From assembly GCA_025350595.1 (NCBI GenBank), contig JANXXP010000133.1:1-48690 (forward strand): a DNA stretch of 48,690 nucleotides. The letters run 5' to 3'. Both the position numbers and the translations under genes were made by a program. The notes under the pieces are model-generated. The model was not told where the DNA came from. It was given only the letters and a program-made list of their open reading frames with translations, and ran no database searches. The DNA is from Bacteroidota bacterium (lineage in GTDB: Bacteria; Bacteroidota; Bacteroidia; Bacteroidales; VadinHA17). This document shows, piece after piece, positions 379 through 447 of this stretch (its first letter is position 1; every line of letters begins with the position of its first letter).

Positions 379-447
379 ATGAATTCATTTCATTTAACAC
401 ACAACAACTTTATTATGCCGCTCATGCCTATGTGCATGTGCAGGTAA
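379..447 (+). CDS. Short Met/Cys-rich leader [25 protein letters not shown]
   Basis: ATG 379-381, stop TAA 445-447, 22 codons with 5 Met and 2 Cys, Met/Cys clustered at the C-terminus. Sits between the SAM riboswitch and metY. Confidence 0.65.

Follow-up and report, generated by a model that had tools for sequence, protein, structure and literature searches.

The locus

The window analysed here, a 48,690-nt stretch of contig JANXXP010000133.1 from a 4.3-Mb Bacteroidota genome, contains near its beginning a predicted SAM-I riboswitch aptamer, a 22-codon ORF rich in Met and Cys codons, and behind them methionine/SAM-metabolism genes in the order metY-hom-metH-metF. The features to which we refer below are as follows.

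201..208, +, likely promoter of the leader transcript, TACCTTTG, proposed from its match to the sigma-A -7 consensus TAnnTTTG
250..363, +, SAM-I riboswitch aptamer (RF00162), full length in cmscan with 70.8 bits, E 1.2e-14
379..447, +, leader peptide, from translation, family alignment and pN/pS
415..441, +, Met/Cys codon cluster, codons 13-21, from the leader alignment
416..446, +, hairpin at the end of the leader ORF (proposed 1:2), -13.3 kcal/mol, z -1.95, with weak covariation
423-438, +, near-invariant core CATGCCTATGTGCATG inside the Met/Cys cluster, from family alignment and genome scan
441..444, +, CAGG, proposed segment 2, which can pair with 495-498
491..530, +, second hairpin (proposed 3:4), without a U-tract, -14.1 kcal/mol, z -2.11
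555..1856, +, metY, O-acetylhomoserine/O-acetylserine sulfhydrylase (TIGR01326, O-acetylhomoserine sulfhydrylase/cysteine synthase, 640 bits)
1932..3134, +, hom, homoserine dehydrogenase (NF004976)
3131..6784, +, metH, cobalamin-dependent methionine synthase (TIGR02082)
6796..7749, +, metF, methylenetetrahydrofolate reductase (TIGR00676)

Direct reading and translation of 379-447 on the forward strand reproduced exactly the ORF given in the preliminary description, and a recount returned seven Met or Cys among its 22 residues, the start Met included, with six of them in the last ten codons. The leader starts 15 nt downstream of the aptamer end, and about 107 nt separate its stop (447) from the metY start (555). 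The aptamer, which had been named from the letters, scores well above the RF00162 gathering score of 44.4 bits and is the sole SAM-I match in the genome; the methionine operon proposed behind it was likewise identified by profile. The core CATGCCTATGNNCATG occurs only once in the genome, at the leader ORF. The motif TAnnTTTG, matched upstream of the aptamer, is the -7 consensus of Bacteroidota sigma-A (PMC9723704). The GTG start at 432 in the ORF list, which had been called spurious, is indeed so, because metY starts at the ATG at 555, as do the metY genes of relatives.

A second riboswitch, of the SAM-II class (10320-10379, -, 53 bits against a gathering score of 44), lies 10 kb from the SAM-I aptamer and precedes metK (8789-10132, -). 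Between metF and metK is a second homocysteine S-methyltransferase-like gene (7850-8782, -), related to the N-terminal MetH module. SAM-II is present in 89 of 114 genomes of the family and 73 of 117 have SAM-I, the two often sharing a contig; a survey in 2007 found both classes together in no species (PMC2258182).

Conservation within the family

The RF00162 search of 117 family genomes gave a match in 73, from which the loci were retrieved except for two weak matches; loci on the minus strand were reverse-complemented before the leaders were surveyed. A Met/Cys-rich leader is present at 50 of the 51 loci in which SAM-I is followed by metY. Thirty-eight family leaders have exactly 22 codons and are free of indels over codons 2-22, and the spacer behind them differs in length. 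Met16, Pro17, Met18 and Met20 are invariant in all 37 distinct leaders, while Cys19 is found in 27 and Cys21 in 21 of the 37, the other residues at these two places being mostly Arg, Asp or Gly; some leaders end in ...SMIMCCMCCCCMC. Met and Cys together make up 49% of the last ten codons (n=65), against about 5% in spacer and shuffled controls. For the 22-codon leaders, the reading frame has a pN/pS of 0.40, as opposed to 0.88 and 1.42 for the two alternative frames; when the alignment columns were shuffled, the value averaged 0.92 and never fell below 0.53. Selection thus acts on the protein. Silent sites are also fixed: every leader uses CCT for Pro17, and Cys, where present at positions 19 and 21, is encoded by TGC throughout. 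These invariant silent sites show that a constraint at the RNA level or on codon choice applies to the same stretch as well, so that part of the leader conservation in the family lies at the nucleotide level.

The preliminary description had held that the peptide should be given up if relatives lacked the frame, the start codon or the Met/Cys cluster; all three are conserved throughout the family, and much of the order has a comparable cluster. Judged by this comparison, the ORF is almost certainly a real, conserved leader peptide. Two divergent copies were also seen. At one locus (L038), the leader stop has become TTA, so that the peptide end reads MCMCRLEL*, and the CCGGT of the proposed segment 2 is kept. 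At another (L365 in genome G081, at ~1024), a leader copy that is apparently a remnant lies beside tRNA-like sequence, with no methionine gene seen within 200 nt downstream.

The leader across the order

An even draw of 295 genomes from the order contained SAM-I in 89, and 89 loci were read. ATG codons are concentrated at 10-19 nt past the aptamer, with 63 in this bin against 6-29 in the other bins; the corresponding number is 69 in the family and 11 in other classes. Outside the family, 57 short ORFs start 8-17 nt past the aptamer, and Met and Cys account for 25% of their last ten codons, compared with 5.4% in spacers and 4.8% in shuffled sequences (Wilcoxon p=1e-10, the loci being only partly independent). 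The peptides are unalignable across the order, with ends such as ...SMDMRCMR, ...MPRMR, ...SMRMRRSLRMR, ...HMFMRCMRSMLS, ...SCCCFCCC and ...LCCCCCCC. Runs of Cys occur only in four relatives (L077, L108, L130 and L132), and these poly-Cys leaders mix TGC with TGT, which shows that conservation concerns the amino acids. Taken with the lack of alignable sequence, the mixed Cys codons indicate that what the leaders have in common is a set of Met and/or Cys codons directly ahead of the stop.

Downstream of the order leaders lie metY, metH, hom, aspartokinase and DUF39 genes, all identified solely from sequence patterns. No such leader was found at 7 of the 27 order metY loci with SAM-I, about a quarter. 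The loci sampled from other classes of the phylum are essentially devoid of leaders, L213 being the one plausible case. In a pattern scan of named genomes, the matches listed were mostly MAGs named 'Bacteroidales bacterium', together with chance matches inside long genes of other phyla. Six loci with DUF39 (L048, L050, L056, L062, L063 and L066) combine SAM-I with a constant spacer of ~95 nt, have neither a leader nor a canonical terminator, and represent another expression platform.

Leaders without a riboswitch

The core CATGCCTATGNNCATG is also present in family genomes with no RF00162 match. With 1,500 nt of upstream DNA at hand, SAM-I-free leaders were found before metY (L358), metH (L362) and hom (L360), and three further loci (L367, L368 and L372) likewise have the leader before metY without SAM-I; cmscan of these six loci returned no Rfam family up to E 0.1. 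The leader before metH is MISHHLNQENLLISIMPMGMVR, again of 22 codons. At L358, no ATG opens the frame before codon 13, and a TTG at the homologous place may serve as the start. In L358, L360, L362 and L368, the ATGCCTATG core is preceded by a TAnnTTTG box at a distance of 41-85 nt. Genomes G046 and G007, in which matches had been missed owing to Ns and a contig start, were not counted as SAM-I-free; in G023 (contig C485) and G053 (contig C97), the contigs begin at the leader. The occurrence of the leader without SAM-I marks it as a separable module, as is expected of a separate sensor.

Terminators and RNA folding

The strand that carries the operon has no terminator-like site within 250-555. 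No hairpin with a U-tract follows the leader ORF, and the locus is not filed as a classical trp-type attenuator. This is the general state of leader loci: by one strict test, a canonical terminator (CTCTTC...GAAGAG plus U-tract) is present in only 2 of 94 loci with a leader, against 11 of 51 leader-free SAM-I loci in the order (Fisher p=0.0002) and 20 of 68 in other classes. At L030 and L055, hairpins of about -10 kcal/mol are followed by TATTTTGT and could be weak intrinsic terminators.

The sequence CCTG at 495-498 can pair with the CAGG at 441-444 or, alternatively, with that at 522-525, and relatives have at the same sites CCGG/CCGG, or CCTG/CAGG in a neighbouring register. RNAalifold on the aligned leaders returned a single helix, the hairpin inside the ORF. 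Codon 14 is complementary to codon 22, the pair being CCG/CGG, CCT/AGG, CCA/TGG or CTG/CAG depending on the species (permutation p=0.03, not corrected for the tree). Pair counts on the three proposed alternative helices showed no significant covariation, so that the trp-like switch stands here as a proposal. Without recourse to an alignment, the leader end was found to pair with downstream RNA better than shuffled sequences do, with a mean z of -1.26 in the family and -0.94 in the order (p=0.00026). Spacers of leader-free loci fold with similar stability, and therefore only the pairing between leader and downstream RNA bears on the model. A trp-like scheme of alternative helices 1:2, 2:3 and 3:4 is a plausible proposal.

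Discussion

The arrangement described here suggests that the leader probably acts as a Met(/Cys)-tRNA-sensing attenuator and serves the SAM-I riboswitch as its output stage, and there is a similarly good chance that the ORF itself is a sensor of Met(/Cys) charging. When SAM is low, the leader start region would be open and the leader translated. A shortage of Met or Cys would then stall the ribosome in the codon cluster before the stop, and the downstream RNA could adopt the 2:3 pairing, which would allow expression. When Met and Cys are plentiful, the ribosome at the stop would cover segment 2, so that the 491-530 hairpin (3:4) could form and expression would be lowered. High SAM would let the aptamer helix P1 hinder leader initiation; the untranslated leader would fold as 1:2, and 3:4 would form again. 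Expression would thus need both low SAM and low Met/Cys charging. A weak intrinsic terminator, Rho-dependent termination and metY translation are candidates for the output step. Both the leader loci and nine metH loci, in which the main ATG lies 2-20 nt past the aptamer with nothing in between, fit an action of SAM on initiation at the first ORF; that SAM gates leader translation in this way we put at an even chance. Evenly balanced, too, is the broader proposal that in many members of the order the SAM-I expression platform is the translation of a Met/Cys leader, that the operon performs an AND operation on two inputs, low SAM and low charging of Met/Cys-tRNA, and that the leader arose in evolution as a module separable from the aptamer.

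The likeness to amino-acid-sensing leaders noted in the preliminary description thus finds backing in the conserved frame, start and cluster and in the leaders without SAM-I, but the canonical terminator of classical transcription attenuation is missing. Its emphasis on Met and Cys together stands in part: Met is invariant and some relatives are poly-Cys, but the two Cys positions vary within the family. Cys-tRNA is probably sensed besides Met-tRNA.

The same leader could instead be a plain relay, in which SAM-I controls initiation at an upstream ORF whose translation holds the mRNA open or keeps Rho away, whatever amino acids it encodes. The fixed spacing of 8-17 nt after the aptamer and the nine metH loci with an ATG next to it agree with this, and a riboswitch-controlled uORF relay exists at M. 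tuberculosis ppe2 (PMC11260477); yet a relay leaves unexplained why a Met/Cys cluster is kept in many arrangements and why leaders occur without SAM-I, and we consider it unlikely. The SAM-I-free leaders are in fact the strongest argument against treating the leader as nothing but a relay or as belonging to the aptamer. A further alternative is a nascent arrest peptide, in which ...MPLMPMxM would detect Met or SAM from within the ribosomal tunnel and stall the ribosome directly, instead of hungry codons responding to tRNA charging. Pro-rich arrest motifs are known in general, and the series Met16-Pro17-Met18-x-Met20 is shared by all 37 distinct family leaders, but the order leaders have no residue motif in common, showing poly-Cys, MRMR and CCCFCCC instead, which makes this explanation more doubtful still than a relay.

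Selection might also act on an RNA or DNA element with a palindromic CATG...CATG, the open frame being incidental. That CATGCCTATGNNCATG is nearly invariant at silent sites and that a hairpin spans 416-446 would suit such an element; against this, the low pN/pS of 0.40 is confined to the reading frame, codons 2-22 are indel-free, the frame opens at a fixed ATG, and the palindrome is missing from the poly-Cys leaders, which use both Cys codons, so that we regard the idea as highly improbable. Short ORFs are common enough, the first 9 kb containing 129 with 20 aa or more, for a chance ORF with a chance Met/Cys cluster to have been considered, but every conservation test contradicts it; with the frame, start and cluster conserved, this candidate is ruled out, and we give it next to no weight. 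Sensing of Met(/Cys)-tRNA charging by the leader is the reading that we prefer.

If it is correct, a riboswitch exerts its effect through the start of translation on a sensing leader peptide, and a single mRNA leader combines metabolite sensing with tRNA-charging sensing. It would also help to explain how SAM-I acts in bacteria that do not rely on Shine-Dalgarno sequences and lack canonical terminators at these loci. Annotation hides such systems, as ORF callers omit the leader and extend metY upstream; from the finding one would expect numerous small ORFs without annotation in one bacterial order.

Comparison with known systems

The preliminary description knew of no system that pairs SAM-I with a leader peptide of this kind, and our search of the open-access literature agrees in that no description of a SAM-I aptamer paired with a Met leader peptide was found. 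Leader-peptide attenuation as such is at home in the family, as a Trp leader MNYINRNNRWWGWWTW... with a canonical U7 terminator precedes trpE on the opposite strand of L003; in this genome (G017), the peptide is MNYINRNNRWWGWWTWINIRDRSTLHC and the terminator CCTCCCGGATATCCGGGAGGTTTTTTT. For amino acid operons of Flavobacterium psychrophilum, leader-peptide attenuation has been reported, without a SAM-I pairing (PMC9723704). In contrast to classical attenuators of the trp, his or thr type, the locus described here has no canonical terminator, weak covariation and a SAM-I aptamer in front.

Cys-run leader ORFs in Actinobacteria are attributed to Canestrari et al. 2020 in a later article that cites them (PMC9031893). 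The polycysteine leader ORFs of mycobacteria and other Actinobacteria likewise have a run of codons for the cognate sulfur amino acid near the stop, before sulfur amino acid genes, and likewise no evident terminator in between (PMC1262725). However, those ORFs are leaderless, belong to Actinobacteria, have runs of Cys alone and are unconnected with any riboswitch, whereas here Met (plus Cys) codons follow SAM-I in Bacteroidota. The present ORF is not of the polycysteine type, as its two Cys codons stand among Met codons and it lies behind a 114-nt aptamer and not at the transcript 5' end.

Other systems share the joining of two elements in one leader. The B12-controlled metE and ppe2 of M. tuberculosis likewise combine a riboswitch with a translated uORF in one leader, each of them acting on the next gene, but the aptamers bind B12 and the uORFs have no cluster of cognate codons (PMC11260477). 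Furthermore, ppe2 uses termination-reinitiation at AUGA (PMC11260477), whereas the stop and start do not overlap here, lying about 107 nt apart. In S. meliloti metA, a SAM riboswitch likewise acts on translation farther downstream; it differs in its SAM-II class, a second in-frame AUG, a terminator and the absence of a sensing leader peptide (PMC9373788). The SAM-I/AdoCbl tandem of Bacillus clausii metE likewise brings two signals of methionine metabolism into one leader (PMC2258182), but both of its sensors are aptamers (PMC2258182), whereas at the metY operon described here the second sensor would be a leader peptide.
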